Shown: positions 1 to 56,185 of the stretch, piece by piece | Layout: every line of letters starts with the position of its first letter | Numbering within the stretch: the first letter of the stretch is position 1 | Origin: Alkaliphilus metalliredigens QYMF | Lineage (GTDB): Bacteria; Bacillota; Clostridia; Peptostreptococcales; Natronincolaceae | Direction of reading: 5' to 3' | DNA: 64,000 bases | Assembly: GCF_000016985.1 (NCBI RefSeq) | Contig: NC_009633.1 | Span: 1,178,001-1,242,000 of the forward strand | Translations under genes and position numbers: made by a program | The notes under the pieces: generated by a model | The model's input: only the letters and a program-made list of their open reading frames with translations | Told to the model about the DNA's origin: nothing | Database searches by the model: none

Positions 1-124
1 CTTCATTTTTTTGATAACATTTTACATGATAAGTGATGGTAGAGAATAGAGGTTCTATCTCGTCAGTGGAAAGATGGTCAAATAGGATGCATTTATTCAA
101 ATATTTTAAACGACTATCCATCAT
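1..124 (-). CDS. Crp/Fnr-family regulator, N-terminal part only
   Basis: About 41 codons run off the left edge on the minus strand. The translation begins MMDSRLKYLNKCILF and continues with LFDHLSTDEIEPLF, the short helical lead-in typical of Crp/Fnr proteins just before the cyclic-nucleotide-binding beta barrel. Two adjacent ATG codons (124 and 121) follow a GGGGG ribosome site. It is divergent from the activase/ABC operon at 323, so it may regulate that operon. The family call rests on a short stretch only; effector and DNA-binding domain lie outside the window. Confidence 0.55.
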   Translation of the reverse strand, partial: MMDSRLKYLNKCILFDHLSTDEIEPLFSTITYHVKCYQKNE

Positions 125-193
125 CTTAACCCCCATAAAAATATAATAAAAAATTGTTAATATAAAAAAGTGTATCCTGAGATACTTCTTTCT

Positions 194-244
194 TTGAAGC
201 TTAACGTTATAATCTCTTTATAGTATAGCTGAAAATGATTATCA
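194..244 (+). promoter_or_regulatory. Promoter with Fur-like box
   Basis: Positions 230-244 read TGAAAATGATTATCA, matching 13 of the 14 specified bases of the Fur 7-1-7 consensus TGATAAT-N-ATTATCA. A TATAGT -10-like hexamer lies just upstream at about 219-224, with a weak TTGAAG at 194-199 as possible -35 (long 19-bp spacer). A repressor bound here would cover the transcription start of the activase/ABC operon. The box match is read directly; control by Fur is inferred. Confidence 0.6.
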
Positions 245-322
245 AAGTCAATAAATTCAAATAGGTATGATTTTCTATCAAGTTTTTTCACTGAATAAGA
301 ACTAGAAAAGGGAGGTTTCATT

Positions 323-3300
323 TTGTATAGCTTAGGAATTGATGTAGGCTATTCTGCCATTAAATTTGTATTAATCAATAAGGAACTTCAAATAATTGAT
401 CGCACCTACATTTTACACAAAGGGAGAATAAAGGAAGAAATAGGACAATACTTTACAAAAATAATCAGTCAATATGGATCTGAAAATATAAACTATGGGG
501 CCGCCACAGGTCAGGGAAGTAAATTCATCTCAGAAAAGCAAGGAATCACATGGATTAATGAAGTCACTTCATTGGTAGAGGGTAGCTGGCGTGTCCACCC
601 TGATGTGAATACTGTTATTGAAATTGGAGGACAAAGTTCAAAATATATTACAAACATGAATCAATCAGACAAATCCAATATGAAAATTTCCATCAATTCA
701 AATTGTTCAGCTGGTACCGGCTCCTTTATTGAGGAACAGGTATCCAGGTTAGATATTAAGTTAGAAGACTATTCAAAGTATACTGAAGAGGCTACCTTTA
801 TACCCAGGATAGCCGGTAGATGTAGCGTGTTTGCTAAAACCGATATCATACACCATCAGCAAGAGGGAACAGATGCAAAGGATATATTACTTGGTCTGGC
901 ATATGCCTTGGTAAAAAACTATCGAGCCAATGTCATTAAGAGAAGTTCAATTCAAAAACCAATATTGTTTACGGGAGGAGTTGCTTATAACAAAGCAATT
1001 ATAGAAGCCCTAAGAGAGACCCTTAAGCTTAATGAGGAAGATGTGGTTGTACCAGAGGACTGTGGAAATGTTGCGGCATTAGGAGCGGCGATTATTGCAA
1101 TGCGAGACAAAATATCTATTGATTTATCCAAAGTACAAATAATCATTGAAAACACTGAAAGTAAATTGAGTTTTATTGAGGATACTGTTACTTTTCCTCC
1201 CTTAAATCAATATGGTAAAAATGATAGTCTAAATAAACATGACTGTAAGAATGTGGGCTTAGAATCTGAGATTAGTGGTTATATTGGACTTGATATAGGT
1301 TCTACCAGTACCAATGTTCTTCTGATGGACCAAGCGAATCATGTGATTGCATTTAAGTACTTAAGGACCTTAGGAGATCCCATTGAAGCAGTTAGAAAAG
1401 GACTTTTGGAAATTAAAAAGGACATGGGAAAAGAAATTAAGGTTTTGGGAGTAGGAGCAACGGGCTCGGGGAGATATATGGCAGGTGATTTTGTAGGGGC
1501 CGATGTCATCATAGATGAAATCACTGCCCAAGCAAAGGCTGCCTATAGCATAGATAAAGAAGTGGATACAATAATCGAAATCGGAGGACAGGACTCTAAG
1601 TTTATTAAGCTAGAGAATGGAATTGTTTCAGATTTTGAGATGAATAAAATTTGTGCTGCTGGAACTGGATCATTTATTGAAGAACAAGCAAAAAAACTCA
1701 ATATTCCCATTAGCGAGTTCGGAGCCTTAGCCCTCAGCTCACAAAATCCTGTGGACTTAGGGGACCGATGTACAGTGTTTATTGAAACAAATGTCGCTGC
1801 CAGTATGAGTCAAGAAGCAAAAATTGAAGACATTGCAGCGGGATTATCCTACTCAATTGTAAAAAATTATTTAAATAAAGTAGTGGGTAAAAAAGAGATT
1901 GGTAAAAAGGTGTTTTTCCAGGGAGGGGTAGCCCATAATCAAGCTGTTGTGAATGCCTTTAGATCCATATTAGGTAAACAAGTAGAAGTACCGGATTTTT
2001 TTAGTGTGACAGGAGCCTATGGGGTTGCTATTTTAGCTAAGGAGCACATGGGAAATTCGGTTTCAGTCTTTAAGGGATTTGAATTAGAAGATGGGTTGAC
2101 CTTTAAAAGAACAGAAAAGAAACAGATTACCACAGAAAGCAAAATAACAAAGGTATTTGAAGAAATTGAAAAGCATTATTTGGAGGGATATGAAACCATA
2201 CTAGATCCCGCAAAGAGAACAGTTGGAATACCAAGGGTACTTTTCTTACACAAATTGTTTCCTCTATTCAATACTTTTTTTAAGGAATTAGGATTCAATG
2301 TCATTTTATCAGATAATAGTAATGAAGAAACCGTAGAATTAAGTCAAGAATTTTCAATGGAGGAAACCTGCTATCCGATCAAGCTGATTAATGGCCATGT
2401 GGCACAGTTACTTGAGAAGAAGGTTGACTATGTATTTTTACCTAGCCTCTATACCATGTCCCATCCAGTATCAACAACAAGGCAAAACTATGGATGTGTG
2501 TACATGCAGTGTTTTCCCAAGTTAATCAACCAAACCATGGAATTAGAAAGTAGGGGAGTTGAATTATTATCTCCGGCATTATCTTTTGAATTTGGTAAAA
2601 AGTATATGATGAAAACCCTTATGGAGCTTGGGAAAAAATTAAAAAAGAATTCAGTTCAGACAGCTCTAGCCCTAACAAAGGGGATGAAGCGGTTGAAGGA
2701 GTTTGAAATGAAGGTTGAAAAATTAGGTGAGAAAACGATACAAAGCTTAGGAAAAGATGAAAAAGCTTTTGTAATTATCACAAGAGCCTATGGGATTGCT
2801 GATCCTATCTTAAACATGGGTATTCCAGAGAAATTAGAAAAATTAGGCTATAAAGTGTTAAGTTTGTCGAATTTACCTGCCCATGACCAAGATACTTCAA
2901 AGGAACATCCGAATCTATATTGGCCCTTTGGTCAACACATATTGTCTGGAGCACAAATGATTAAACAGCATCCTAATTTATACCCAATCTATATCACAAA
3001 TCATGGTTGTGGTCCCGATACGGCATTAGCCCATTATTTCAAAGAAGAAATGAAAGGAAAGCCCTATTTAAACATAGAGGTGGATGAGCACTTTTCCAGT
3101 GTGGGTGTGTTAACTCGGGTTGAAGCCTTTGTCAATAGTTTGAAATCCGAACCAGTTCTAGAGGGTGAAGTCCTAGAGATTAAGCAATATGCTGATATGG
3201 TCGTTCATAAGCCTACAAACATTAAATCAAAATTGCATGAGATAGATAAAAAAACAGTACTGTATTTGCCACATCTATATCCATACGCTCAAATGCTAGC

Positions 3301-4375
3301 CACTTACTTGCAGGCCAAAGGACATGAGGCTTACGTGCTACCAATGACGAATAAGAAGACCTTAGATTTAGGACGAAAGCACACATTGTCTAAGGAATAC
3401 CTTTCCTTTACAGGCCTTGTTGGAGATGTGTTAAGACAGGCATTAAAGTGTGAGGAATCAAGTGAAAACTACGGATTTATCATTCCTACATCCGAGGGTT
3501 CAGAGGTGGGAGGGCAATACCATAGATTGCTTCGAGATAAATTAGATGGAGAAAAAAGACAAAAGGCAGAGATCATGGCTCCATTTATTGAAGATGTCAT
3601 AAAAGACAGCACAATTTCCCGGGATATATTCTTGATGCTCTTAGGAGGAGATTTAATCAATACTGTATCAAGAAATAAAAGAGAAAAATATCTTGATAAA
3701 ATTCAGAGTTTGATCCAAAAGAATGAATTGACTATTGATCACTTGAAAATCATGGCAAAAGAAATCTATAGCGGAATCAAAAGACCAGACCACTCAAAGA
3801 AAATTTTCGTTGTGGGGGAGGTAAATGTTTTATTCAATGATTTCATGAACAACAATACATTCAAAACCATGGAGGAGCAAGGGGTACAATTATTGTACGC
3901 TCCCCTCAGTGAATATATGTGGTTTGTCTGGAGAGATTATTTATCCCAACAAAACAATGGAAAAGAACTTGAAGCTCACAAAGAGCTAATTCGATTGTCG
4001 GGTTATATTCAAACGATATCCCGAATATTGATGGATGAAAGCACCTTTGAAAGGGATCTGGAAAGCCTTGTGCAAAGAGCAGATCAGCATTTAGGTCTTT
4101 ATTCCGGTGGAAATGGGAGATATAGACATGCTAAAGTCATGGGAGATTTAAATGATATAAAGGGAATCATAACCGTTTCTTCGATGTATGAAAATACCAA
4201 TACCATTTTAAATATATTATCCGAAGATAAAAACAACATTTCTAAAATACCGGTATTAAACATGACATTTGATGGAAATGAGAATGAAATAGATAAGTCT
4301 AAAATAGATTCCTTTACCTATTATGTACTGCAAGAGAATAATAGTGAGGAAGCAAGTAATGAAAGGGGGGCTTAA
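323..4375 (+). CDS. Fused double activase / DUF2229 / HgdB-like protein (1350 aa)
   Basis: A giant member of the 2-hydroxyacyl-CoA dehydratase activator (HgdC/BadF) superfamily. Domains in order: ASKHA ATPase 1 (about 1-265, GIDVGYSAIK phosphate loop), ASKHA ATPase 2 (about 318-580, GLDIGSTSTN), a DUF2229 module (about 635-850) and an HgdB-like C-terminal part (about 1060-1310). Each ATPase keeps the two cysteines that in HgdC bridge a [4Fe-4S] cluster; in domain 1 they are C128 and C167, within CSAGTGSF and AGRCSVF. Such activators use ATP to drive low-potential electron transfer. TTG start after AGGGAGG with 8-nt spacing. No dehydratase subunits sit beside it; an ABC importer follows 1 nt later. 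Electron acceptor and substrate are unknown. An unfused paralogous set is at 45355-48416. Confidence 0.85.
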   Translation: MYSLGIDVGYSAIKFVLINKELQIIDRTYILHKGRIKEEIGQYFTKIISQYGSENINYGAATGQGSKFISEKQGITWINEVTSLVEGSWRVHPDVNTVIEIGGQSSKYITNMNQSDKSNMKISINSNCSAGTGSFIEEQVSRLDIKLEDYSKYTEEATFIPRIAGRCSVFAKTDIIHHQQEGTDAKDILLGLAYALVKNYRANVIKRSSIQKPILFTGGVAYNKAIIEALRETLKLNEEDVVVPEDCGNVAALGAAIIAMRDKISIDLSKVQIIIENTESKLSFIEDTVTFPPLNQYGKNDSLNKHDCKNVGLESEISGYIGLDIGSTSTNVLLMDQANHVIAFKYLRTLGDPIEAVRKGLLEIKKDMGKEIKVLGVGATGSGRYMAGDFVGADVIIDEITAQAKAAYSIDKEVDTIIEIGGQDSKFIKLENGIVSDFEMNKICAAGTGSFIEEQAKKLNIPISEFGALALSSQNPVDLGDRCTVFIETNVAASMSQEAKIEDIAAGLSYSIVKNYLNKVVGKKEIGKKVFFQGGVAHNQAVVNAFRSILGKQVEVPDFFSVTGAYGVAILAKEHMGNSVSVFKGFELEDGLTFKRTEKKQITTESKITKVFEEIEKHYLEGYETILDPAKRTVGIPRVLFLHKLFPLFNTFFKELGFNVILSDNSNEETVELSQEFSMEETCYPIKLINGHVAQLLEKKVDYVFLPSLYTMSHPVSTTRQNYGCVYMQCFPKLINQTMELESRGVELLSPALSFEFGKKYMMKTLMELGKKLKKNSVQTALALTKGMKRLKEFEMKVEKLGEKTIQSLGKDEKAFVIITRAYGIADPILNMGIPEKLEKLGYKVLSLSNLPAHDQDTSKEHPNLYWPFGQHILSGAQMIKQHPNLYPIYITNHGCGPDTALAHYFKEEMKGKPYLNIEVDEHFSSVGVLTRVEAFVNSLKSEPVLEGEVLEIKQYADMVVHKPTNIKSKLHEIDKKTVLYLPHLYPYAQMLATYLQAKGHEAYVLPMTNKKTLDLGRKHTLSKEYLSFTGLVGDVLRQALKCEESSENYGFIIPTSEGSEVGGQYHRLLRDKLDGEKRQKAEIMAPFIEDVIKDSTISRDIFLMLLGGDLINTVSRNKREKYLDKIQSLIQKNELTIDHLKIMAKEIYSGIKRPDHSKKIFVVGEVNVLFNDFMNNNTFKTMEEQGVQLLYAPLSEYMWFVWRDYLSQQNNGKELEAHKELIRLSGYIQTISRILMDESTFERDLESLVQRADQHLGLYSGGNGRYRHAKVMGDLNDIKGIITVSSMYENTNTILNILSEDKNNISKIPVLNMTFDGNENEIDKSKIDSFTYYVLQENNSEEASNERGA

Positions 4376-4376
4376 A

Positions 4377-5093
4377 TTGAAACTGGAGGGGGTCTATAAA
4401 AATTTTGATGAAATAAAAGTATTACACAATTTTAATCTAGCAGTAGACGATAAGGAAATAACCTGTATTTTAGGACCCTCTGGATGCGGCAAATCGACTT
4501 TGTTGAATATCATGGCGGGAATTATAAAGCCCGATGTAGGTAGTGTAAAAGACAATAAAAAGAAAGTGGGATATGTGTTTCAAGAGGATCGATTACTTCC
4601 TTGGAAAACCGTATACGAAAACATAAAAATAGTCAATAAAAAAGCTTCGGATTTAAAGTTAAAGAATTTAATTAATCTTGTGGGGCTGACTGACTTTGAA
4701 AATAAATATCCGGGCCAATTAAGCGGTGGTATGAGGCAACGTTGTGCCATCGCAAGGGCCTTTAATTTTCAATCGGAACTGTTATTAATGGATGAGCCAT
4801 TTAAATCACTAGACTATGATCTTCGGATCAATATGGTAAAAAGCCTAATTGATATATGGCATAAATGGAATAATGCGATTGTGTTTGTCACCCATGAAAT
4901 CGATGAAGCCATATTACTGGGCAATAAAATTGTGGTCCTTTCTAAAAACCCCTGTACTGTAGAAACAATCATAAATGTAAATACACCTCAAAACCTGAGA
5001 AACCTTGAGGACAGAGAATTAGTAGCTGTAAGGACTAAGCTGATTAAGATTCTTTCAAATCAAAAGGATGCTAGTACCTATAAAAGTGCTTAG
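4377..5093 (+). CDS. NitT/TauT-type ABC importer, ATP-binding protein
   Basis: ABC ATPase of the SsuB/TauB/NrtD type. Walker A GPSGCGKST, Q-loop FQEDRLLPW, signature LSGGMRQR, Walker B LLMDEPF followed by SLD, and H-loop VTHEIDEA are all present, so it should be catalytically competent. The FQE-RLLPW-T-EN pattern is characteristic of the nitrate/sulfonate/thiamine-precursor importers. I place the start at TTG 4377, 6 nt after an AAAGGGGGG ribosome site; an in-frame ATG at 4359 would add six residues and overlap the preceding gene. It couples with the permease at 6179 and binding protein at 5179. Confidence 0.88.
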   Translation: MKLEGVYKNFDEIKVLHNFNLAVDDKEITCILGPSGCGKSTLLNIMAGIIKPDVGSVKDNKKKVGYVFQEDRLLPWKTVYENIKIVNKKASDLKLKNLINLVGLTDFENKYPGQLSGGMRQRCAIARAFNFQSELLLMDEPFKSLDYDLRINMVKSLIDIWHKWNNAIVFVTHEIDEAILLGNKIVVLSKNPCTVETIINVNTPQNLRNLEDRELVAVRTKLIKILSNQKDASTYKSA

Positions 5094-5178
5094 TCGGTGG
5101 CAAGAAAGAATATCGTAATTTAATGTGATCAAAAGTAACAATGAAGCTTTGAAAAATAGTAAACGAGGAGTGTTATGT

Positions 5179-6204
5179 ATGAAAAAAGTAATGAGTTTGA
5201 TTTTGATTTTAAGTTTAGCCCTAGCCATATTATCTGGATGCACGTCAAATGTTGACAATCAATCTGATGCAGCAGAGGTAGATGCATCAGAAGTGAATAC
5301 AGAAGAGGTGGAAAAAGTAAGTATCAAGGTAGCTGCTCCTGCAGGTGCCCCAACCTTGAGTATGATCAAAATGTTTAAGGAAAATCCATCCTTTGGAGAA
5401 CATGTAGAGGTAAGCTATGAATCTGTTAAATCTCCGGATTTAATGGCTTCTAGAATTATTTCAGGAGAAGTTGATATCGCAGTGGTACCGACTAATCTAG
5501 CAGCGACACTTTATAACCGAGGCGTGGACTATAAGCTGGCGGCATCAAGTGTATGGGGAATTCTTTATGTTGTTGGAAATGAAGAAATGACTAGCTGGGA
5601 AGACTTAAGAGGAAAAGAAATCTATACCATGGGAAGGGGAATGACTCCAGACATTGTTTTCAGATATCTTCTTTCTAATAATGGAATCGATCCAGATAAT
5701 GATGTCACATTAACCTACATGGGAGAAGCCACTGAGCTTGCTTCAGCATTTATTGCTGGCAAAAGTGCCATATCAATTATGCCAGAGCCTGTACTTTCTA
5801 ATGTCATGATGAAAAAGCAAGATACTAAAATAGTATTAGATTTACAAGAAGAATGGAGTAAATTAAATAATGGTGATTCAAGTTATCCTCAAGCCTCTCT
5901 GATGGTGAGAAATGATGTGGTTGAAAATAATCCAGAGCTTATCGAAATGTTTTTACAAGAATATGAAAGCAGTATTAGTTGGTTAGTCACAAATGCTGAA
6001 AAAGCAGGAGAATACAGTGAAGCGTTAGAAACTGGTCTATCTAAAGGCGTTGTTGTGGCAGGACTCCAAAGGTCTAATATTGAATACCGTAGCTCAAAAA
6101 CTGCGAGGGAAGCCATCGAAAAATATTTAAACGTGCTATTTGAATATTCACCAGAAGTAATTGGAGGGAAGCTTCCAGATGAAGGCTTCTATCTTGAAAA
6201 CTAA
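5179..6204 (+). CDS. NMT1/THI5-like ABC substrate-binding lipoprotein
   Basis: Periplasmic-type binding protein of the NitT/TauT importer class. A lipoprotein signal (LALAILSGC) is followed by an acidic linker and the domain beginning IKVAAPAGAPTLSMIK. The stretch GEVDIAVVPTNLAATLYNRG is typical of NMT1-like proteins. ATG 5179 follows GAGGAG with 8-nt spacing; an upstream in-frame start would give a non-secretory leader. Ligand cannot be read from sequence; relatives bind sulfonates, nitrate, bicarbonate or thiamine pyrimidine precursors. The Fur-like box upstream of the operon hints at a metal-related or redox-stress-related ligand, which is inference. Confidence 0.82.
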   Translation: MKKVMSLILILSLALAILSGCTSNVDNQSDAAEVDASEVNTEEVEKVSIKVAAPAGAPTLSMIKMFKENPSFGEHVEVSYESVKSPDLMASRIISGEVDIAVVPTNLAATLYNRGVDYKLAASSVWGILYVVGNEEMTSWEDLRGKEIYTMGRGMTPDIVFRYLLSNNGIDPDNDVTLTYMGEATELASAFIAGKSAISIMPEPVLSNVMMKKQDTKIVLDLQEEWSKLNNGDSSYPQASLMVRNDVVENNPELIEMFLQEYESSISWLVTNAEKAGEYSEALETGLSKGVVVAGLQRSNIEYRSSKTAREAIEKYLNVLFEYSPEVIGGKLPDEGFYLEN

Positions 6205-6931
6205 AAACAGTAAAGAACTATTATACACGGCACTATCCATCATAACCCTGCTAATCCTTTGGAAAGTCGTGTCTGTCATAGTGGATAAAGAAATATTGAT
6301 TCCTTCACCTGAAAAGACTTTTATTGAAATTATAAGCATTATAAGAGCACCCTATTTTATTGTAGCAGTAATGAATACATTAAAAAGAGCCCTAATCGGT
6401 TTTGTCATCGCATTGGGAGCAGGCATTGGTTTAGGTCTGATGGGAGGCTTTTTCAAGCCAATGTATTATTTACTAAGACCAATTGTATTAATTAATAAAG
6501 CAGTACCTACCATGGCTATGATCTTACTTGCTCTCATCTGGTTAGAGTCAGAAAAAGCCCCTATATTAGTTGGATTTGTGGTTATTTTTCCAATCATATA
6601 TGAAAATGTTGTCCAAGGAATCAGAAACGTTGATGTGAAATTGGTTGAAATGATGGACATGTACGATATTAATAAACTAGATAAGTTGAAAGATTTATAC
6701 ATGCCATCCATCAAATCTTATCTACATGGAGCCATGTCAGCAGCCATGGGCCTTAATCTTAAAATAATCATAGCAGCAGAAGTGCTGAGTCAACCAAGAT
6801 TATCAATGGGAACAAGTTTTCAAATCGAAAAAGCAAATTTGAATACTGCAGGGGTATTTGCATGGTCCCTGATAGCCATATGTATCGCAGGTATTTTAGA
6901 GCAGACACTTAAAGTGATGAAAAATAGGTAG
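6179..6931 (+). CDS. NitT/TauT-type ABC importer, permease
   Basis: Inner-membrane permease with about six hydrophobic segments and the BPD_transp_1 coupling region (GIRNVDVKLVEMMDMYDINKL). The ATG at 6179 follows GGAGGGA and overlaps the 3' end of the binding-protein gene by 26 bp, showing translational coupling. It completes the importer with the ATPase at 4377 and the lipoprotein at 5179. It is the last gene of the operon; a hairpin lies about 90 nt downstream. Confidence 0.85.
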   Translation: MKASILKTKNSKELLYTALSIITLLILWKVVSVIVDKEILIPSPEKTFIEIISIIRAPYFIVAVMNTLKRALIGFVIALGAGIGLGLMGGFFKPMYYLLRPIVLINKAVPTMAMILLALIWLESEKAPILVGFVVIFPIIYENVVQGIRNVDVKLVEMMDMYDINKLDKLKDLYMPSIKSYLHGAMSAAMGLNLKIIIAAEVLSQPRLSMGTSFQIEKANLNTAGVFAWSLIAICIAGILEQTLKVMKNR

Positions 6932-7238
6932 CGGAAATCTTAGTAATACTGGAAAATAAACTGTTTTAGAGCATCTGTTATAAAAATACAGTAAATAAAA
7001 TAGAAGAATGATTAATGGTCCCCTAGACGAGTGTTTAGGGGATTTTGCTTTGGAAAGAGCATTTTTTTCTTAAAAATACTAAAAAGTACAAAAAAAAACT
7101 TGATTGTGCATGGACCTTCATTATAAAGTTTTATATAATTGTAAAAGATGAAGATGATTATTGTTATCATTTGAAAAGTTTTACTGGTAATATCCTTTGT
7201 AGGGATATACTACATAATACAAGGAGGGATTATTTTAC
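6932..7238. other. Intergenic region before nikA
   Basis: About 307 bp with no convincing gene. It holds the terminator-like hairpin at 7019-7046 and a T/A-rich leader with a TATAAT at about 7132, a plausible -10 for the nik operon. A 66-codon open frame here has no recognisable features and its codons are AT-drift-like. I see no NikR-type GTATGA-N15-TCATAC operator and no recognisable riboswitch. Confidence 0.5.
7019..7046 (+). terminator. Hairpin terminator after the ABC operon
   Basis: A 7-bp stem TCCCCTA/TAGGGGA (7019-7025 with 7036-7042) is followed by TTTT. The T tract is short, so termination may be partial. Confidence 0.55.
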
Positions 7239-8876
7239 ATGTTAATTAAAAACAAAATCATGAAATTATTTATTATGAGTATTTTACTCATAACTTTGCT
7301 GGCGGGTTGTTCTTCAGGCGGGGCATCAAACACGACTTCTCAAGATAGTAACTCTAATGAAGGTAATACCACAGAGGAGGTTAACACGGATGAATTGCTC
7401 TATGTTAATTATAGAGACATAAGAGATTTAAATCCTCATCTTTATAGTGGAGAGCTTTTTGCACAAAATTTATTATTTGAAGGGTTAGTAATGATTACAG
7501 ATGAAGGGATTCAGCCATGGCTTGCAAAAGACTGGGATATATCTGAAGATGGACTGACATATACCTTTCACATAAGGCAGGGGGTCACTTTTTCCGATGG
7601 ATATCAATTTGATGCCCATGCGGTAGAAGCTAATATTCAGGCTATTTATGATAACTATGATAGACATGGTTGGCTAGAAAGCATTAGATTATTAGACGGG
7701 TTTGGTGCTATTGATGAGTATACCTTTGAGATGAAATTAAAGGAACCTTATTATCCCCTACTTACAGAGTTGGCGGTAACTAGACCCTTTAGATTCCTAT
7801 CCCCTAATAGCTTCATCGATGGAACCACTAAAGATGGCGTGGAGGGACTTATTGGTACAGGGAAATATGTCCTTACAGAAAATCATATTGATGAATATGC
7901 TATATTCGATGTAAATTCAAGTTATTGGGGCGAAAAGCCAGAAATTAATAGAATTACTGCAAAGGTTATTCCTGATAATCAAATCAGAACACTTGCTCTA
8001 GAAAAGGGTGAGATTGACATCATATTTGGAACAAATATGATTGATGCAGAAACCTATCTTAGGTTTTCGGAAATGGAAGGCTTTGGGGCGAGTTTATCAG
8101 ATCCTTTGGCTACGAGAATGCTTATTGTGAATTCAACTGATGAAATTCTATCTGATGTCAATGTAAGGCAGGCTGTTAATGCAGCGGTGAATAGAGAAGA
8201 AATATCTGATGGAATTTTTTATGGGTTAGAGGCTCCTGCTGATAGGATGTTGGCTAGTACCGTCCCCTATTGTGATGTTGACCTAGAGGGATATGTTTAT
8301 TCCCTAGATAAAGCAAATGGTCTTCTTGATGAATCAGGTTGGAAGATGAATGAAACTACAGGTGTACGTGAAAAAGATGGCATGTCTTTAGAGGTTGAAA
8401 TGCATTATAATGCTGATAGTGTAACAGAGAAAACAATTGCTGAATACTTGCAAGGTGAAATGACAGGAATTGGTCTTAGGCTTAATATTATTGGAGAAGA
8501 GGAACAAGCCTATAGAGACAGAATGAAGGCTGGAGACTTTGCTATTACTTTCAATATGTCATGGGGAACTCCCTATGATCCACATTCTTTCCTTGGTGGC
8601 ATGAGAATGCCTGCTGTTTATGGTGATTATGCAGCCCAGCAGGGTCTTGTGGAAGTTGACAAGCTTCATGATACAATCCTAAAGGCTTTTACAAGCACAG
8701 ATGAAATTCAAAGACAAGCGTATTATGATTATATTCTTACCTATTTACATGAAGAAGCCATCTATGTTCCATTGACCTTTGAAAGAAACAGAGCAATATA
8801 TAAAGACAAGGTGAAAAACGTAACATTTAATCCTTCTCAATTTGAAGTACCCCTTGAACGAATGTATATTAAATAA
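7239..8876 (+). CDS. nikA: NikA-type ABC substrate-binding lipoprotein
   Basis: Family 5 solute-binding protein of 545 residues closely resembling NikA along its length: LNPHLYSGELFAQNLLFEGL, PWLAKDWDISEDGLTYTF, RPFRFLSPN and WGTPYDPHSFLGGMRMP all have NikA counterparts. Lipoprotein signal ends in LLAGC. In E. coli NikA the nickel-site histidine (mature His416) follows MRVPS; here that loop reads MRMPAVYGDYAAQQ and has no histidine, so metal coordination must differ, or another metal or metallophore complex is bound. ATG 7239 follows AAGGAGGG, with ATG 7260 as alternative. First gene of a nikABCDE-like operon. Confidence 0.85.
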   Translation: MLIKNKIMKLFIMSILLITLLAGCSSGGASNTTSQDSNSNEGNTTEEVNTDELLYVNYRDIRDLNPHLYSGELFAQNLLFEGLVMITDEGIQPWLAKDWDISEDGLTYTFHIRQGVTFSDGYQFDAHAVEANIQAIYDNYDRHGWLESIRLLDGFGAIDEYTFEMKLKEPYYPLLTELAVTRPFRFLSPNSFIDGTTKDGVEGLIGTGKYVLTENHIDEYAIFDVNSSYWGEKPEINRITAKVIPDNQIRTLALEKGEIDIIFGTNMIDAETYLRFSEMEGFGASLSDPLATRMLIVNSTDEILSDVNVRQAVNAAVNREEISDGIFYGLEAPADRMLASTVPYCDVDLEGYVYSLDKANGLLDESGWKMNETTGVREKDGMSLEVEMHYNADSVTEKTIAEYLQGEMTGIGLRLNIIGEEEQAYRDRMKAGDFAITFNMSWGTPYDPHSFLGGMRMPAVYGDYAAQQGLVEVDKLHDTILKAFTSTDEIQRQAYYDYILTYLHEEAIYVPLTFERNRAIYKDKVKNVTFNPSQFEVPLERMYIK

Positions 8877-8883
8877 AATAATT

Positions 8884-8928
8884 GATGCAGATGGGTCATA
8901 GTAAATATACCTATGACTCATCTGCATC
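8884..8928 (+). promoter_or_regulatory. Long intercistronic hairpin between nikA and nikB
   Basis: Two 18-nt arms, 8884-8901 and 8911-8928, pair with one mismatch around a 9-nt loop. The hairpin starts just after the nikA stop and ends 15 nt before the nikB ribosome site. There is no long T tract (TTTATAAAA follows). It probably protects or partially terminates the nikA message so that binding protein is made in excess over the membrane subunits. Confidence 0.7.
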
Positions 8929-8954
8929 TTTATAAAACAATTAAGGAGGTAAAG

Positions 8955-9890
8955 ATGAAAAGATATATCATAAAAAGAATGCTGATAGCACTGCCTATGA
9001 TGTTGGCAGTATCCTTTATCGCCTTTGTTCTTATCAATCTCATTCCAGCTGATCCTGCTGAAGTAGCCCTAAGGGTGAATGATATCATACCTACTGAGGA
9101 AGCAATAGAAGGTATGAGGGAAGAATTGGGATTAAATAAATCCTACTTGCAACGGTATATTGATTGGCTACGGGATGTTCTCCGTCTTGATTTTGGGAAT
9201 TCCTATGTCAATAAAAACAGAACGGTTATAGGGGAGATTTCTAGGAGCTTACCCGCTACTTTAGAGCTGGCAGGGGCTTCTTTGTTTATTGTCATTTTTG
9301 TCAGTATACCTATTGGGGTGCTTTGTGCTACATTTAAAGACAGTGTTTTTGATAGAATCGTAAGATTATTTATATTTATCGGTACGGCGATGCCCAACTA
9401 TTGGATTGGCATTTTGTTGATATGGTTATTTGGAGTCAAATTAGATCTGCTACCAACGGGAGGAAATAAAGAAGAAGGTGCAATTATTCTGCCTGCCATT
9501 GCATTGAGCCTTACCTATATTTCCACCTATGTTAGATTGATAAGAACCAGCATGCTAGAAAATATGACAGAGAATTATGTTTTTTATGCAAAGGTTAGAG
9601 GACTTAATGACAAAACAATCATATTAAAACATGTTTTGAAAAATTCGCTTCAATCCTCTATCACTGCTTTAGGAATGAGTATTGTTAAGCTGATTTCTGG
9701 AACTGTTGTGATCGAAAATATCTTTTCCTGGCCGGGGATAGGTAGACTATGTATTTCTTCAATTTTTAATAGGGATTATCCAGTGATTCAGGCTTATATT
9801 CTTATGATGGGTATACTCTTTGTTTTATGTAATCTTATTGTGGATCTTGTACATTATAAATTGGATCCAAGACTACAAGAGGTGATGTAA
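8955..9890 (+). CDS. nikB: NikB-type ABC permease
   Basis: Dipeptide/nickel-family permease. The N-terminus MKRYIIKRMLIALPMMLAVSFIAF and the loop GLNKSYLQRYIDWLRDVLRLDFGNSY are family hallmarks, followed by about five membrane helices and the EAA-type coupling loop (YVFYAKVRGLNDKTIILKHVLKN). ATG 8955 follows AAGGAGG. It forms the heteromeric channel with the next gene, whose start overlaps this stop. Confidence 0.88.
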   Translation: MKRYIIKRMLIALPMMLAVSFIAFVLINLIPADPAEVALRVNDIIPTEEAIEGMREELGLNKSYLQRYIDWLRDVLRLDFGNSYVNKNRTVIGEISRSLPATLELAGASLFIVIFVSIPIGVLCATFKDSVFDRIVRLFIFIGTAMPNYWIGILLIWLFGVKLDLLPTGGNKEEGAIILPAIALSLTYISTYVRLIRTSMLENMTENYVFYAKVRGLNDKTIILKHVLKNSLQSSITALGMSIVKLISGTVVIENIFSWPGIGRLCISSIFNRDYPVIQAYILMMGILFVLCNLIVDLVHYKLDPRLQEVM

Positions 9891-10711
9891 TGATGATAAA
9901 GAAATTACTGAGGGACAAAATCGCGCTGATCACTTTAATCATTATATTATCTACGATGCTGATAGGGATTTTAGCCGAGGAGATTGCACCCAACGATCCA
10001 AATAAAACAAATATTACAAATAAATATACCCAGATTAGTGAGGAATTTCCACTAGGGACAGATCATCTTGGACGCTGTATACTATCAAGATTAATCTATG
10101 GTATAAGACCTACCATATTTTTATCCATGATTACAATGTTCTGCACAATTATCCTTGGGACAATTGTTGGTATGATATCAGGATACGCTAGAGGGATGAT
10201 TGATGAAGCGATTATGCGGATGGTGGATGTCATGTTATCCTTTCCTAGCGAAGTTATGATACTTGCAGTGGTTGGTATGATGGGGGTTGGGATACGAAAT
10301 ATCATTATAGCAAGCATCGCCATCAAGTGGGCTTGGTATGCTAGAATGATTAGGTCCAGTGTGATTAAATACAACAATAAAAATTATATTTTATATTCCA
10401 AAACCATCGGTACAAGTAAAGGTTTTATTATCACCAGACATTTACTTCCCAATATTCTATCGGAGATCATTGTGCTGGCTACATTGGATATGGGCTGGGT
10501 CATTCTTAGTATTTCTACGCTTTCATTCCTTGGACTTGGAATTCAAGCACCAACTGCAGAATGGGGAGCCATGCTCAGTGAAGCAAAGAATGTGATTACC
10601 TCTCATCCAACACAAATGCTTGCTCCAGGCTTTGCTATATTAATCCTTGTGTCGGCTTTTAATATGTTGGGAGATAGTTTAAGGGATGTGCTAGATCCAA
10701 AGGAGGTATAA
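9890..10711 (+). CDS. nikC: NikC-type ABC permease
   Basis: Second channel subunit. It shows the family start (one helix then NDPNKTNITNKYTQISEEFPLGTDHLGRCILSRL), the DHLGRD-like motif here as DHLGRC, and the coupling loop YILYSKTIGTSKGFIITRHLLPN. Start codons ATG 9890 and ATG 9893 are adjacent; GAGGTGA is better spaced for 9893. The start overlaps the nikB stop (ATGTAATGATG), implying coupled translation. Confidence 0.87.
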   Translation: MMIKKLLRDKIALITLIIILSTMLIGILAEEIAPNDPNKTNITNKYTQISEEFPLGTDHLGRCILSRLIYGIRPTIFLSMITMFCTIILGTIVGMISGYARGMIDEAIMRMVDVMLSFPSEVMILAVVGMMGVGIRNIIIASIAIKWAWYARMIRSSVIKYNNKNYILYSKTIGTSKGFIITRHLLPNILSEIIVLATLDMGWVILSISTLSFLGLGIQAPTAEWGAMLSEAKNVITSHPTQMLAPGFAILILVSAFNMLGDSLRDVLDPKEV

Positions 10712-10715
10712 GCTA

Positions 10716-11525
10716 GTGGAAGAAATATTAAAGGTCAATCATTTAAAAGTGAGTCATAGGGACCATAAAGTGTTTAAGAATATCATTTGGGATATTTCCT
10801 TTACTTTGAAAAAAAATCGTTGTCTTGGTATTGTTGGAGAAAGTGGCAGTGGCAAGAGTATTACCTGCAAAGCTATATTAGATCTGCTGGATAAAAGTTT
10901 TGATGTAAAGGGAGAAGTGATTTTAAATGATATACATCTGTTGAAGGCAGACAAAAGGAAGATTAGACAGATAAGGGGAAAGGAAATCTCCATGATATTA
11001 CAAAATCCTATGACTGCCTTCGATCCGCTGTACCCTATACAAGAACAAATGATGGAAACTTTTATTGAAAATCTTGATATTAGTAAAAAAGAAGCTTTGG
11101 TTCTTTCATTAAAGGCACTAGAGGATATGAATATCCTTTGTCCTAAAGATGTACTTAAAAAATATCCATATCAACTGAGTGGGGGGATGCTCCAGAGGAT
11201 TATGATAGGTATCACACTTACACTAAAGCCCAGTATTATTATTGCCGATGAACCAACTACTGCTGTGGACGCCATCAATGTAGGGAAGGTGATGGAGGAG
11301 TTTGAAAGGATTAAAGAAACCTATGATACATCTATGATCTTTATATCCCATGATCTAGGGGCGGTTGCTAGGATATCTGATGATATCCTAGTAATGAAGG
11401 AGGGTGAAGTTGTGGAAGAGGGTGAAACACAGTGCGTGCTAAGGACACCTAAAAGTGAGCATACAAAATATTTAATCAATACCAGAAAGGCATTGACGGA
11501 TAAGTTCCATCGGGTTATAGGATAG
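10716..11525 (+). CDS. nikD: NikD-type ABC ATP-binding protein
   Basis: DppD/NikD-class ATPase: Walker A GESGSGKSI, Q-loop LQNPMTAFDPLYPI, signature LSGGMLQR, Walker B IIIADEPTTAVD and switch ISHDLGAV. GTG start 10716 lies 9 nt after AGGAGG. The C-terminus lacks the Cys-containing oligopeptide-binding extension seen in many DppD proteins, as in NikD. Works as a heterodimer with the protein encoded at 11538. Confidence 0.87.
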   Translation: MEEILKVNHLKVSHRDHKVFKNIIWDISFTLKKNRCLGIVGESGSGKSITCKAILDLLDKSFDVKGEVILNDIHLLKADKRKIRQIRGKEISMILQNPMTAFDPLYPIQEQMMETFIENLDISKKEALVLSLKALEDMNILCPKDVLKKYPYQLSGGMLQRIMIGITLTLKPSIIIADEPTTAVDAINVGKVMEEFERIKETYDTSMIFISHDLGAVARISDDILVMKEGEVVEEGETQCVLRTPKSEHTKYLINTRKALTDKFHRVIG

Positions 11526-11537
11526 GAGGGGAGTTTA

Positions 11538-12341
11538 ATGTTACTTGAAATACAGAATGTCTATAAAAGCTATAAAAAATCTATTGGTATGATAAAAAAA
11601 GAAAGTGTTGAAATTGTAAAAGGTGTATCCCTGAGGCTTAAGGAGGGAGAATGCCTTGGCATCATTGGTGAAAGTGGCAGTGGGAAAAGTACTTTAGGAC
11701 GACTCATAATTGGTCTTGAAAAGGTAGATCGTGGTAATATACAGATTGAAGGTATCGACATCAGTAAGCTAAATAGTACGTTTCTAAAAAAGAAGGCAAG
11801 TGTTGTATTCCAAGACTATAGTTCTTCTGTTAACCCACGCTTTAGGGTTATAGATATTCTATCGGAACCCATAAAAACCTTTGAAAAATTAACAAAAAAA
11901 CATACAATCAAAAAGGCAATCAATCTATTAGAAAAAGTAGGTTTAGCTGAGGAATATTTATATCGTTATCCCCACCAGCTGAGTGGAGGACAATTACAAA
12001 GGGTGTGTATTGCTAGAGCGATTGCCACCAATCCTAAATTTATTGTTCTTGATGAAGCCATAAGTTCTTTAGATGTATCAGTTCAGGTTCAGGTGTTGGA
12101 TTTACTTATTGAGTTAAAAAAGCAAATGGCTATATCCTACATCTTTATCACCCATGATTTAACAGCCATTACCTATATATGCGATCGGGTTTTATTTTTT
12201 AAGGATGGCCTTGTCATCGAAGAGGTTAACGCTATGAGTGATTTAAGAAATGTAAAAGAGGAATATTCTAGGACATTATTACATGCCGCCATGATGATGA
12301 ATGAGAGGGAGGAGACCTATGAAATACAAAGAATATCTTAA
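11538..12341 (+). CDS. nikE: NikE-type ABC ATP-binding protein
   Basis: DppF/NikE-class ATPase: Walker A GESGSGKST, Q-loop FQDYSSSVNPRF, signature LSGGQLQR, Walker B FIVLDEAISSLD and switch ITHDLTAI. ATG 11538 follows GGAGGGG. The Walker B reads DEAISSLD rather than DEPTSALD, as in NikE. Its 3' end overlaps the MATE gene by 23 bp, tying the exporter to the importer operon. Confidence 0.87.
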   Translation: MLLEIQNVYKSYKKSIGMIKKESVEIVKGVSLRLKEGECLGIIGESGSGKSTLGRLIIGLEKVDRGNIQIEGIDISKLNSTFLKKKASVVFQDYSSSVNPRFRVIDILSEPIKTFEKLTKKHTIKKAINLLEKVGLAEEYLYRYPHQLSGGQLQRVCIARAIATNPKFIVLDEAISSLDVSVQVQVLDLLIELKKQMAISYIFITHDLTAITYICDRVLFFKDGLVIEEVNAMSDLRNVKEEYSRTLLHAAMMMNEREETYEIQRIS

Positions 12342-13653
12342 ACTTGCTATACCCTTTACCATATCAACAATAACACAGCCTTTACTAGGAGCAGTGGATA
12401 CCGCCGTTATAGGTAGACTTGGAGATCCTGCCTACATGGGTGGTGTAGCAGTAGGCACAGTGATTTTTAGTACCCTATATTGGCTATTTGGTTTTTTGAG
12501 GGTAAGCACATCGGGGTATTCTGCCCAAGCACTGGGAACAAATGATGAAAAGGATGGATTGTTTGCATTATATAGACCAAGTATAATTGCCATCATAATT
12601 AGTTTTATTTTTGTGGCGCTACAGGTTCCAATTTTTCATACTGCTATGAACCTTATTAATCCTGATATAGAGGTATACCGTCAAGCATCCACTTATTTTC
12701 ATATTTTGATTTGGGGTGCACCCTTTGTTTTGCTGAACTATGTAAACCTTGGATGGCTTATGGGTAGGAAGAAGGTAAAGGCTTCTATGTTTTTACAGAT
12801 TTTTACCAATGTGTTGAATATTGTTTTAGACATTGTTTTTGTCATGTATTTCAAGATGGGTGTAGCTGGGGTTGCCTATGCTACCTTGATCGCACAAATA
12901 ACAGCCTTTGCTATTGGATTCTACCTGATCAGTGTGAATCTCAACCTATCAGCAATAAAAAAGTATCTTTCTCAGTTGTTTGATCAAAGAGCCTTCAAGA
13001 AAATTATGGGTGTCAATAGAGACCTGATGATTAGAACGGTATGCTTACTTATCGTAACTAATATGTTTGTAGCAAAAGGGGCTTCTCTTGGGACGGAAAT
13101 GTTGGCAGCCAATGCAGTTTTATTCCAAATACAGTATATTATTGCATACTTTTTTGATGGCTTTGCCAATGCCTCCAGTGTCTTTGTAGGTACTGCTGTT
13201 GGAGAAAAGAATGCAAAGCTGTACAATGAAGTTTTGACTGTTTCTACCAAAACCACATTTATATTAGCGGCTATTATGTCACTTGTGATATACTTTTTTA
13301 GAGGTGAAATAATCAGTATTTTTACCGTTATTGAAGGCATAATTAACCTAAGTTTAGCCTACTCTATGTGGTTGGTTATTTACCCATTTGTTATAGGAAT
13401 TGGCTTAGTCTATTATGGCATTTTTACCGGTGCCACCTATACCGCTCCCATCAGAAATTCAATGATTTTATCCCTTGGGGTATTCCTGATCACTTATTTT
13501 GTGATGGTTCCTCTGTGGGGTAACCATGGTTTATGGCTTTCTTTTATTGTTTTTAGTTTAGGAAGAAGTGTTTTTCTTGCACCCTATATTACAACCTTTA
13601 AGAAAGAAGTCTTTATACTTGAGACTAGCCAAGTGATTGCTCATAGTGTCTAA
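12319..13653 (+). CDS. MATE-family efflux transporter
   Basis: About 445 residues with twelve hydrophobic segments. The start KYKEYLKLAIPFTISTITQPLLGAVDTAVIGRLGDPAYMGGVAVG is the MATE/DinF N-terminal repeat. ATG 12319 follows GGGAGGAG and lies inside the end of nikE. MATE proteins exchange Na+ or H+ for organic compounds. Linkage to a Nik-like importer suggests it could export a metal-chelating small molecule that the importer retrieves, but no metallophore synthase is nearby, so that is speculative. Confidence 0.85.
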   Translation: MKYKEYLKLAIPFTISTITQPLLGAVDTAVIGRLGDPAYMGGVAVGTVIFSTLYWLFGFLRVSTSGYSAQALGTNDEKDGLFALYRPSIIAIIISFIFVALQVPIFHTAMNLINPDIEVYRQASTYFHILIWGAPFVLLNYVNLGWLMGRKKVKASMFLQIFTNVLNIVLDIVFVMYFKMGVAGVAYATLIAQITAFAIGFYLISVNLNLSAIKKYLSQLFDQRAFKKIMGVNRDLMIRTVCLLIVTNMFVAKGASLGTEMLAANAVLFQIQYIIAYFFDGFANASSVFVGTAVGEKNAKLYNEVLTVSTKTTFILAAIMSLVIYFFRGEIISIFTVIEGIINLSLAYSMWLVIYPFVIGIGLVYYGIFTGATYTAPIRNSMILSLGVFLITYFVMVPLWGNHGLWLSFIVFSLGRSVFLAPYITTFKKEVFILETSQVIAHSV

Positions 13654-41444: not shown

Positions 41445-41877
41445 GTGAAATCAGTGTCGGAAGGAGGAACCACAGGATTAGCAGCAACCCTTGAGGCTGC
41501 TGAAGAGGGTGTATCTGTAACTTTAATAGAAAAGCCATCTATGTTAGGTGGAAGTACACTTTTATCAGGTGAAATTGATGAAGAATTAATCAATTATATA
41601 GCTGAACACTCCGGAGAAACCTTTGAATGGTTAGAAGCGCAAGGTGTTGAATTCACTGAGAACTTGTCAAGCGAAGGCATAATGAGCTGGCTGAAAAAGT
41701 ATAGACGAAGACTTTGGAAACGGAGCAATCGCCACCATTAAAGGATTATATGCAGTAGGGGAGGTAATTAATGGACAATTAGACAAGACTATTTATCCTG
41801 CAAGTGGTACTTCTATTACAATGGTTTTTATATTAGGCAGAGTAACGGGAAAAGAAGCTGCTCAAGCAGCCAAATAA
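41445..41877 (+). pseudogene. FAD-binding (fumarate reductase/flavocytochrome c-type) remnant
   Basis: An N-terminal fragment reads GGTTGLAATLEAAEEGVSVT then LIEKPSMLGGSTLLSG, the FAD dinucleotide-binding start of the family. At about 41700 the sequence jumps to the C-terminal end in another frame: IKGLYAVGEVINGQLDKTIY … GRVTGKEAAQAAK stop. The 350-400 residues between are deleted. No intact copy is in the window. Confidence 0.8.
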
Positions 41878-45354: not shown

Positions 45355-46368
45355 ATGACAATCAAAATTGGTATCCCTAGAGGACTATGGGTGTATGATT
45401 ATTACCCACTATGGAAGACCTTCTATGAAGCATTAGGGGCAGAAGTCATCTTATCCAACCCTACTAATAAGAGCATTTTAGATCAAGGAGTAAAAAATAC
45501 CGTTGATGAGGCCTGCTTGCCGGTTAAAATTTTTAATGGACATGTATTAGATTTAAAGGATAAAGTGGATTATATATTTGTTCCTAAGATCATGAGTGTC
45601 TATCGCAAAGAATACATTTGTCCAAAGTTTTGTGGATTGCCAGAAATGGTAAAACACTCAATTCCTGATCTTCCCCCGATGATCGATACAGAGATTAACT
45701 TTAACCGCTCTAGAAAACATCTCATGAGGACAGTTTATGAATTTGGAAGTTATGTGACAACAAATAAAAAACAGATTAAAAAGGCATACGAAGAAGCCCT
45801 ACAAGAGTATGAAAAATTTAAAAAACAGCTCAAACAAGGTGCACTACCATTAGATGGAATTGTTAAGCCCTATGTCATCACTGACAGCCAAGAGCAAAAG
45901 GAGATTAAAAAGAGTGGGAATGCAAAAAGAATTGCCATCATGGGACACTCCTATAATTTATATGATACCTATGGCTCTATGAATTTAGTTAAGAAGCTAC
46001 AGGATCAAAATATAGAGATTATCACAGCGGAGATGATAGACTACAAAGTGATTAACCAATATGCTGAAACATTAGAGAAAAAGATGTTTTGGAGTTTTGG
46101 AAGGAAATTATTAGGTACTGCTATGTATTTAGCAGTGGAAAAAAATGTAGACGGGATTATTTACTTGTCGTCTTTTGGATGTGGAATTGATTCTATCATT
46201 GAAGACTTATTTGAAAGAAAGATTAGAAAAGAAGGTGGCATTCCTTTTCTATTGATTACGGTGGATGAACATACAGGAGAAGCAGGCGTCAATACAAGGT
46301 TAGAAGCCTTTATGGATATGATTGATTGGAGGAAGCGTGATGAAGGTAACCTTTCCGCACATGGGTAA
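45355..46368 (+). CDS. DUF2229 activase-associated protein
   Basis: 337 residues: IKIGIPRGLWVYDYYPLWKT, DEACLPVKIFNGHVLDLKDK, and VDEHTGEAGVNTRLEAFMDM at the C-terminus. Same module as residues about 635-850 of the fused protein at 323, where it reads VGIPRVLFLHKLFPLF and EETCYPIKLINGHV. The conserved Cys (DEACLP) and the CPKFCGLP pair may bind a cluster. First of three overlapping genes that together equal the fused protein. Biochemical function unknown. Confidence 0.8.
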   Translation: MTIKIGIPRGLWVYDYYPLWKTFYEALGAEVILSNPTNKSILDQGVKNTVDEACLPVKIFNGHVLDLKDKVDYIFVPKIMSVYRKEYICPKFCGLPEMVKHSIPDLPPMIDTEINFNRSRKHLMRTVYEFGSYVTTNKKQIKKAYEEALQEYEKFKKQLKQGALPLDGIVKPYVITDSQEQKEIKKSGNAKRIAIMGHSYNLYDTYGSMNLVKKLQDQNIEIITAEMIDYKVINQYAETLEKKMFWSFGRKLLGTAMYLAVEKNVDGIIYLSSFGCGIDSIIEDLFERKIRKEGGIPFLLITVDEHTGEAGVNTRLEAFMDMIDWRKRDEGNLSAHG

Positions 46369-52325: not shown

Positions 52326-52404
52326 AATAGAATAATTTTTCAAAGTATTGGAAGACTAATAGGGATAGTAGCAAATATTGATATTTTTAGAAGGAGGGAA
52401 AACT

Positions 52405-54537: not shown

Positions 54538-54552
54538 ATAGGATTGTCTATG

Positions 54553-54592
54553 CAAAGAAAGGATTCCATAGTGAATCCTTTCTTTTTTTGAC
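54553..54592 (+). terminator. cooS terminator
   Basis: AAAGAAAGGATTC/GAATCCTTTCTTT stem with T7. Confidence 0.88.
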
Positions 54593-54635
54593 AATAGAAT
54601 TCGTATGATGCTCTCTCATCGACTCATAAGTGCAC

Positions 54636-54668
54636 TAAAAAAAGAAGTCCTCCATGGGCTTCTTTGAT
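54636..54668 (-). terminator. Terminator of the DUF1622 gene
   Basis: Read on the minus strand, AAAGAAGCCC pairs with GGACTTCTTT (one mismatch) and is followed by T4-7. Confidence 0.65.
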
Positions 54669-54698
54669 AATCATCTATTATTAATTATGTTATCATAA

Positions 54699-56166: not shown

Positions 56167-56185
56167 GCAAAAAAGGATTGAGCCT

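Follow-up and report, generated by a model that had tools for sequence, protein, structure and literature searches.

A giant activase-reductase of Alkaliphilus metalliredigens behind a conserved Fur box: a possible iron-starvation reductase with an exchanged cluster site

Which enzyme is served by a protein that carries two complete activases, and why is it encoded together with an importer behind a Fur box? The locus that raises this question lies near the left end of a 64,000-nucleotide stretch of the Alkaliphilus metalliredigens QYMF genome (NC_009633.1, positions 1,178,001 to 1,242,000), the full length of which is called the window in this report. The giant fused activase-reductase encoded there is named ACT. 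An earlier note on this DNA stated that no dehydratase-type partner of the activases is present. This was wrong: the predicted partner is the C-terminal half of ACT itself, and a split triad of related proteins lies at 45355-48416. The answer put forward here is tentative. ACT may be an iron-starvation-induced, single-chain, ATP-driven low-potential reductase whose substrate, perhaps a ferric complex, is imported. The gene and its parts are located as follows.

323-4375, forward strand: ACT, giant fused activase-reductase of 1350 amino acids with a TTG start (open reading frame (ORF), Pfam and NCBIfam)
323-1270, forward strand: first activase (ASKHA) domain of ACT, bounds approximate, cluster cysteines C128 and C167
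1277-2092, forward strand: second activase (ASKHA) domain of ACT, bounds approximate, cluster cysteines C444 and C483
2189-3148, forward strand: alpha module of ACT (residues 623-942), DUF2229 plus HGD-D-like, with C683, C725 and C896 and a predicted HadC/DCCP fold
3245-4357, forward strand: beta module of ACT (residues ~975-1345), COG3581-like, with Y1026, E1061 and E1290 at the positions of the relatives' cluster cysteines

The 1350-residue fusion of two complete activases with DUF2229 and HgdB-like modules, as described in the earlier note, is borne out by Pfam and NCBIfam. BcrAD_BadFG (235 bits, cut-off 31.5) and TIGR00241 (300.6 bits, cut-off 125.4) match two stretches each, and the activase sequence matches entry 4eht with an E-value of 1.2e-39. 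DUF2229 covers residues 633-848 (216.8 bits) and is followed by a sub-threshold HGD-D match at residues 889-940 (22.9 bits, cut-off 28.4). The pairs C128/C167 and C444/C483 are invariant in 32/32 full-length orthologs, which were taken from 39 loci (numbered L). ORFs shorter than 1200 amino acids were omitted (L048, L052, L053, L064, L066, L068 and L069), L114, L116, L119 and L120 were dropped as duplicates of L055, L056, L058 and L051, and L121 was also unused. Two giant genes are interrupted, by an in-frame TAG in Alkaliphilus peptidifermentans (L048, 10302-10304) and by a frame change in A. transvaalensis (L052, ~9161-9179).

Residues 605-1350 of ACT were modelled from a 28-row alignment (predicted local distance difference test score, pLDDT, 84.4; predicted template modelling score, pTM, 0.86). 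Alignments A1 and A2 exclude L054, L061, L063 and L070. All nine Foldseek matches of the model below 1e-3 are chains of HadBC, the double-cubane cluster protein (DCCP), MbdON and BzdNO. In VIA-align, residues 623-942 superpose on HadC (3o3n_B) with a Z-score of 15.9 and an r.m.s. deviation of 3.8 (273 residues), and the alpha module superposes on DCCP (7yzm_A) with a Z-score of 15.6. Ten rows of this family, including HadC, DCCP, BzdN and MbdN, have Z-scores of at least 11.2 and all others among the matches listed have Z-scores of 7.6 or less. A profile search of the PDB sequences with the C-terminal half gave no match at E ≤ 1. The beta module is barely covered by the VIA-align rows, so no fold is claimed for it alone. 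Its kinship rests on hhalign, which aligns the beta modules of ACT and its relatives with an E-value of 1.3e-30; on inspection of this alignment, Y1026, E1061 and E1290 fall into the columns of the relatives' cluster cysteines.

In this model, the catalytic partner of the ACT activases is the C-terminal half of the same chain. Since this half has the predicted fold of HadBC, DCCP and the benzoyl-coenzyme A reductases (BCR; coenzyme A, CoA) and a conserved three-cysteine site, the chain looks self-sufficient. An orphan activase that needs an external partner was rejected because of this reductase fold, and the orphan-activase puzzle dissolves with activase and reductase in one polypeptide. ACT has the ASKHA activase with two cluster cysteines per domain that marks the family of BCR and 2-hydroxyacyl-CoA dehydratases and, in the predicted model, a catalytic module that combines the HgdB/DCCP fold and a three-cysteine site. 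The Fe-S cluster that the second catalytic module of this family has of its own is missing from the ACT clade, in which Tyr, Glu and Glu take the place of its cysteines.

This exchange separates ACT from its closest relatives. The seven cysteines that are invariant in 32/32 ACT orthologs comprise the two pairs of the activase domains together with C683, C725 and C896 of the alpha module. In 18 complete giants outside the ACT clade all 14 cysteines are retained. A four-cysteine linker motif follows the second activase in 22/22 other giants and the three cysteines of the beta module are present in 20/20, 19/19 and 18/18 of the rows that reach those columns. The split triad of the window also keeps the linker and the three beta cysteines. 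In ACT, the linker is missing from 31/32 rows and a cysteine is kept at any of the three beta positions in 0/32. These positions are occupied by Tyr in 31/32 rows (one Thr), Glu in 31/32 (one Asp) and Glu in 30/32 (one Met, one Ser), and the three residues occur jointly in 28/32. The sole ACT row with the linker comes from a metagenome bin labelled Lokiarchaeota (L054) and already has Tyr/Asp/Glu. In a quick tree, in which long branches were flagged, all 32 ACT rows are set apart by a branch with a Shimodaira-Hasegawa-like approximate likelihood ratio (SH-aLRT) of 100.

The exchange is also found out of sample. A phylum-wide sample contains ACT in 10/398 genomes, including that of A. metalliredigens, and provides six independent new loci; L217, L218 and L222 were excluded because they repeat the L047 and L053 lineages. 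Five of the new ACT proteins are full-length and lie outside the L047 lineage. Four of them have Tyr/Glu/Glu, one has His/Glu/Glu, and the linker motif is present in 0/5. Judged from the sequences, the three residues would form an oxygen-ligand site that binds a metal or the substrate close to the alpha cluster.

ACT-like proteins in the wider sense are common, with a match at E ≤ 1e-60 in 137/148 genomes of the relatives searched, that of A. metalliredigens included. Among them are uncharacterised giants and split triads, which we take to correspond to COG1924, COG3580 and COG3581. They share the module order and alignable beta modules with ACT, but keep the cysteines that ACT has lost. The genome of A. 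metalliredigens encodes elsewhere a 1434-residue giant (giant-2, L184:4264-8568) and a separate HGD-D/activase pair (L185:5089-7089), which on our reading of its sequence is probably DCCP-like. The split triad lies within the window.

45355-48416, forward strand: split triad of a DUF2229/HgdB-like protein (45355-46368), a COG3581-like protein (46322-47452) and an activase (47427-48416), cysteine sites kept

Among the Fur-like sites with up to three mismatches listed for the window, none lies less than 1.5 kb upstream of the triad. A zinc-type importer follows the triad; a ZnuA-family zinc-binding protein (48668-49684) has a tandem His/Asp-rich stretch.

Comparison with characterised systems places ACT in a known family with an unusual composition. 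2-Hydroxyisocaproyl-CoA dehydratase (HadBC) and its activase likewise combine an ATP-driven [4Fe-4S] activase with a two-module reductase. ACT differs in being one chain with two activase copies, in the replacement of the beta cysteines by Tyr/Glu/Glu, in its Fur-type promoter and in the importer of its operon. DCCP, which acts with DCCPR, shares the fold of the alpha module. Each reductase module of DCCP has a double-cubane ligand set; ACT has none, because three cysteines are conserved in its alpha module and none in its beta module. The class I benzoyl-CoA reductases BzdNO and MbdON belong to the same family and fold, but in ACT the whole cluster site is replaced by putative oxygen ligands and no aromatic pathway genes were noticed by reading. 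A 2025 study proposes that new functions arose in the benzoyl-CoA reductase-type family when a sub-cluster was lost (PMC11971306).

In view of its fold and its activase homology, which link it to HadBC, BzdNO and MbdON, ACT could also be a catabolic enzyme, either an acyl-CoA dehydratase or an aryl-CoA reductase, that acts on an imported carbon source and is under Fur control only incidentally. This is very improbable. The Fur box is conserved (see below), the second cluster site is lost, and no CoA-transferase or CoA-ligase was noticed among the recurrent neighbours of ACT, which were surveyed by reading and not by a systematic family search. No published role for the fused giant or for the wider group of such proteins was found among the titles listed from the open-licence literature.

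The promoter region contains two sites in addition to the -10 hexamer.

1-136, reverse strand: 5' end of the divergent Crp/FNR-type regulator gene (ORF of 231 amino acids, the rest left of the window; L104:11441-12136)
172-185, no strand assigned: exact palindrome GTATCCTGAGATAC, putative site of the divergent regulator in class II activator position, from conservation in orthologs
208-213, forward strand: -10 hexamer TATAAT, which starts 29 bp past the palindrome centre; inferred start site at ~220
230-244, no strand assigned: Fur box TGAAAATGATTATCA, 13/14 specified bases

The Fur match of 13/14 had been recognised in the earlier note, which missed the palindrome beside it. It is the only match with up to one mismatch in the window. 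At up to three mismatches the window holds 15 Fur-like matches versus 14.97 in shuffles, so only the near-perfect match is informative. The genome (4.93 Mb) has 12 sites with up to one mismatch versus 0 for the reversed pattern. Of the other 11, one lies beside a FeoB gene, one beside a FecB/FecCD pair and one precedes an SBP_bac_5 binding-protein gene; the remaining ones have no recognised iron gene adjoining. Three Fur-family genes, one of which may be Fur proper, are present in the genome (PF01475 above cut-off).

The earlier note had suggested a comparison of upstream regions, and this reveals a conserved box. Within 250 bp upstream of ACT (37 loci; L049 and L061 too short) a Fur-like site of at least 12/14 is present in 23/37 loci and of at least 11/14 in 32/37. 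Within 320 bp (38 loci; L061 too short), at least 12/14 is reached in 25/38. The giant-2 gene served as the matched control (21 loci, from 20 other genomes and that of A. metalliredigens) for the 30/39 ACT loci of at least 15 kb. A box of at least 12/14 precedes ACT in 22/30 of these and giant-2 in 0/21 (Fisher p 4e-8). The exact GTATCN4GATAC palindrome is found in 19/30 and 0/21, respectively. The loci are related, so p-values from this promoter comparison overstate independence. Fur-like sites of 11-12/14 persist at ~45% protein identity (L062, L065 and L067), and they precede ACT in lineages that have no importer beside it (Pelosinus 12/14, Clostridium beijerinckii 11/14). In importer operons without ACT a site of at least 12/14 occurs in just 3/19 (L181 left out), and Fur control thus appears to follow the giant protein. 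A chance site was rejected because the box is one of 12 in the genome, conserved in orthologs and absent from the control paralog. The operon thus has the features of a Fur regulon member: the promoter box is retained among orthologs and less frequent in the matched controls, and the genome encodes Fur-family proteins.

The palindrome GTATC-N4-GATAC is exact in 24/38 ortholog upstream regions and has one mismatch in one more. In 25/38 loci, TATAAT begins at a distance of 28-30 bp from the midpoint of whichever site is most palindrome-like. The Fur-like site follows the palindrome by 44 bp in 16 loci and by 37-51 bp in 13, and lies elsewhere in 9 (38 loci). With this spacing of the -10 hexamer, the palindrome falls near -41.5 and the Fur box comes to lie shortly past the inferred start. 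Crp/FNR proteins act as class II activators from sites centred near -41.5, and the adjacent gene encodes such a protein, with HTH_Crp_2 and cNMP_binding (Pfam) both above cut-off. In its family, cysteine is not well conserved at any column (15/27 and 11/27 rows in the two best ones), which gives no indication of an FNR-type cluster. A search of the A. metalliredigens genome with an over-long palindrome pattern was too strict to yield a regulon. A second exact GTATCN4GATAC palindrome at 59715-59728 lies inside an ORF (59189-59938) and is probably due to chance.

Further Fur-like sites of 12/14 are found on both sides of the operon. At 7155-7169, TGATTATTGTTATCA lies ahead of a nickel/metallophore-type importer operon with a MATE exporter (7155-13653), in which NikA scores 590 bits (cut-off 393), the permeases score above the nickel/cobalt Opp1B/Opp1C cut-offs and the two ATPases below theirs. 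About 10 kb left of the ACT gene, TGATAATGAGAATCA (L104, 1309) lies between a DUF3793 gene and a flavodoxin gene (L104, 648-1928).

The neighbours of ACT are distinctive as well. They were counted with BLAST probes up to 8 kb away in the 30 ACT and 21 giant-2 loci. A Crp/FNR-type regulator is near ACT in 24/30 loci and near giant-2 in 1/21 (Fisher p 6e-8), a NitT binding protein in 21/30 and 0/21 (p 2e-7), and a cupin in 20/30 and 0/21 (p 7e-7). In A. metalliredigens the cupin gene lies just beyond the regulator. Less frequent neighbours are Hcp (5 of the 30), FecC (4), flavodoxin (3) and FeoB (1), with 0, 1, 0 and 0 of the 21 controls. The SufC probe (12/30 and 3/21) was not used as evidence because it also matches other ABC (ATP-binding cassette) ATPases. 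Overall, the NitT binding protein is present in 21/39 ACT loci, and two more (L049 and L058) are cut off by a contig end behind the ATPase gene.

Iron-type genes accompany ACT in single loci (identified by Pfam for most, not all). FeoB is found in L105, FecC/FecB-type importers in L062, L066, L106, L110 and L221, and flavodoxin in L048, L056, L105 and L220. FecBCD-type genes lie upstream of ACT in the importer-less loci of C. beijerinckii (L062), Faecalimicrobium dakarense (L066) and L110; the latter also has SufB (Pfam) and, by reading, IrtAB-like ABC proteins. The importer-less locus of Clostridium puniceum (L065) has no FecBCD-type genes. In Pelosinus, ACT and its Fur-like boxes occur without an adjoining importer or Crp/FNR regulator. 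The phylum-wide loci contain a Fur-family gene in L219, L221 and L224, Suf in L219 (74% match to the SufC of L110, plus reading), a ZIP transporter in L224, FecC, FecB and two ABC exporter-type proteins in L221, flavodoxin and DUF3793 in L220, and the NitT importer in L219, L220, L223 and L225. A UbiE-type S-adenosylmethionine-dependent methyltransferase of 198-224 amino acids recurs beside ACT in L110, L219, L221 and L224 (Pfam for L219 and L224, the rest by eye); these loci also have Fur-family, Suf or Fec genes.

The loss of two cluster sites also admits another reading, which is the closest rival for this very reason. ACT could be an iron-sparing isozyme that carries out the reaction of the triad or of the 1434-residue paralog with two fewer Fe-S clusters and stands in for these proteins during iron shortage, in the way that flavodoxin substitutes for ferredoxin. 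The linker is lost in 31/32 and the beta cysteines in 32/32 ACT rows, while the relatives that reach those columns keep all of them. The Fur box precedes ACT and none of the 21 giant-2 genes, split triad and giant-2 are encoded in the same genome as ACT, and flavodoxin is near ACT in some loci. On the other hand, the lost cysteines have become a conserved Tyr/Glu/Glu set and not random residues. ACT comes with an importer, a cupin and a regulator, which are found in 0, 0 and 1 of 21 giant-2 loci (for the triad, the neighbourhood was seen in the window only), and some ACT loci sit with Fec, Feo, Suf or Fur-family genes. The isozyme is judged somewhat unlikely. It would share its core with the reading preferred here, i.e. 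ACT would be an iron-starvation reductase in either case.

The genes that the earlier note assigned to a NitT/TauT-type importer behind the giant gene were all found, and ATPase, permease and NMT1-like lipoprotein together define this type.

4377-5093, forward strand: NitT/TauT-type importer ATPase (PF00005; start picked by eye, longest ORF from 4323)
5179-6204, forward strand: NMT1/SsuA-like substrate-binding lipoprotein (model and fold match)
6179-6931, forward strand: importer permease (PF00528)

Like the SAO system (SaoA/SaoP/SaoX), which is named in PMC13188914, and like SsuABC and TauABC, the ACT importer is of NitT type. Of the named models, SaoA comes closest to its ATPase and SaoP to its permease, but the scores are far below the curated cut-offs for all named equivalogs (SaoA 171/360, SaoP 99/295, SaoX 19/300, SsuA family 55/163.5, taurine ATPase model 166/357). 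The binding protein was modelled with a pLDDT of 88.0; its best fold match is 3hn0 (structural genomics), followed by TauA, PqqT, SsuA and Thi5. A ligand assignment from these matches gave nothing specific. ACT loci use two NitT subfamilies, whose binding proteins are 28% identical (set A3 excludes the short binding-protein ORF of L069). NitT importers without ACT lie directly behind [FeFe]-hydrogenase-type genes in L171 (Pfam) and L179 (by eye), and a DUF3793 gene adjoins a NitT importer in L177.

The fold next to TauA and SsuA could indicate sulfur or sulfonate assimilation under iron stress, in which a sulfonate-like anion would be imported and reductively cleaved to give sulfide for Fe-S cluster repair. 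In Clostridioides difficile, both iron scarcity and the absence of fur raise the expression of an ssuA2B2C2 operon that contains an iron-hydrogenase-like gene, and no Fur box was detected there (PMC6311696); the hydrogenase-linked importers in L171 and L179 may be compared with it. Suf genes are present in L110 and L219. However, NitT-type binders have many ligands, the named equivalogs are far below cut-off, and some importer-less ACT loci have FecBCD-type importers instead (L062, L066, L110 and L221). Altogether, this explanation appears improbable.

For the iron-starvation reductase on an imported substrate, the preferred reading, the following course of events may be proposed. Under iron limitation, Fur would leave its box at ~+11 to +25 and the divergent Crp/FNR-type regulator, given its own signal, would activate from the site centred at -41.5. 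The importer would take in a small ligand that is the substrate of the reductase. The two activase domains may form an internal pseudo-dimer around one [4Fe-4S] cluster, and ATP hydrolysis would drive a low-potential electron to a putative [4Fe-4S] cluster held by the three cysteines of the alpha module. The electron donor is probably flavodoxin or ferredoxin. The beta module, which in relatives has a second cluster site, would offer the Tyr/Glu/Glu oxygen-ligand site near the alpha cluster. Because of the iron context, an imported ferric complex is the first guess for the substrate; this or another iron-related ligand would be reduced to free or use the iron. The full version of this guess is rather unlikely, namely a new iron-assimilation enzyme of the BCR/2-hydroxyacyl-CoA dehydratase family, an ATP-powered single-chain ferric-complex reductase in which Tyr/Glu/Glu, in place of one cluster, holds the ferric substrate by the remaining low-potential cluster.

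Several observations weigh against the preferred reading. The pooled iron-type neighbours (FeoB, FecBCD, flavodoxin and DUF3793) are not significantly enriched (7/30 versus 1/21, Fisher p 0.12). Several lineages, e.g. Pelosinus and relatives of C. beijerinckii, have no importer adjoining ACT. Homologs occur in 81/148 relatives including A. metalliredigens, many of them without ACT, so the importer also exists independently of the giant protein. The binding protein resembles binders of taurine, sulfonate, hydroxymethylpyrimidine (HMP) and pyrroloquinoline quinone (PQQ), and no siderophore binder is among the 50 fold matches listed for it. The Tyr/Glu/Glu set has exceptions (Asp in L054, Thr in L113, Met in L063 and Ser in L070). 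In the new phylum-wide loci a Fur site of at least 12/14 lies upstream of ACT in 2/6 (L219 and L221), and L220, L223, L224 and L225 score only 8 or 9. ACT has same-strand genes ahead of it in L220, L223 and L225, and its promoter there may therefore have a different location.

The earlier note had linked the operon to an ATP-driven low-potential reduction coupled to uptake under iron limitation. As an interpretation this idea survives, on the conserved Fur box and the importer in most long loci; its picture of an activase without an enzyme does not. Nor do most homologs lack the importer or the Fur site, which the note had named as the outcome that would speak against it, in the 39-locus set; the later phylum-wide loci, with the site in two of six, are less favourable.

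Elsewhere in the window, a short ORF at 41445-41741 is by eye a truncated fumarate reductase-type flavoprotein, perhaps a gene remnant. The region 52378-56872 contains a gene of the carbon monoxide dehydrogenase/prismane family (PF03063, 482.8 bits) and, 1.6 kb downstream, a Crp-family regulator gene (56099-56872).

The conserved Fur-type promoter, the importer in most loci and the ligand exchange provide a concrete handle on the role of the uncharacterised giants. The operon hints that scarce iron is tolerated or scavenged in a way not recognised so far. If the exchange creates a metal or substrate site, it would extend the idea that cluster loss leads to new function, as put forward in PMC11971306. 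If ACT is a ferric-complex reductase, anaerobes could strip iron from complexes that are too stable for ordinary reductants. More generally, the means of acquiring or sparing iron would then include ATP-driven electron transfer.

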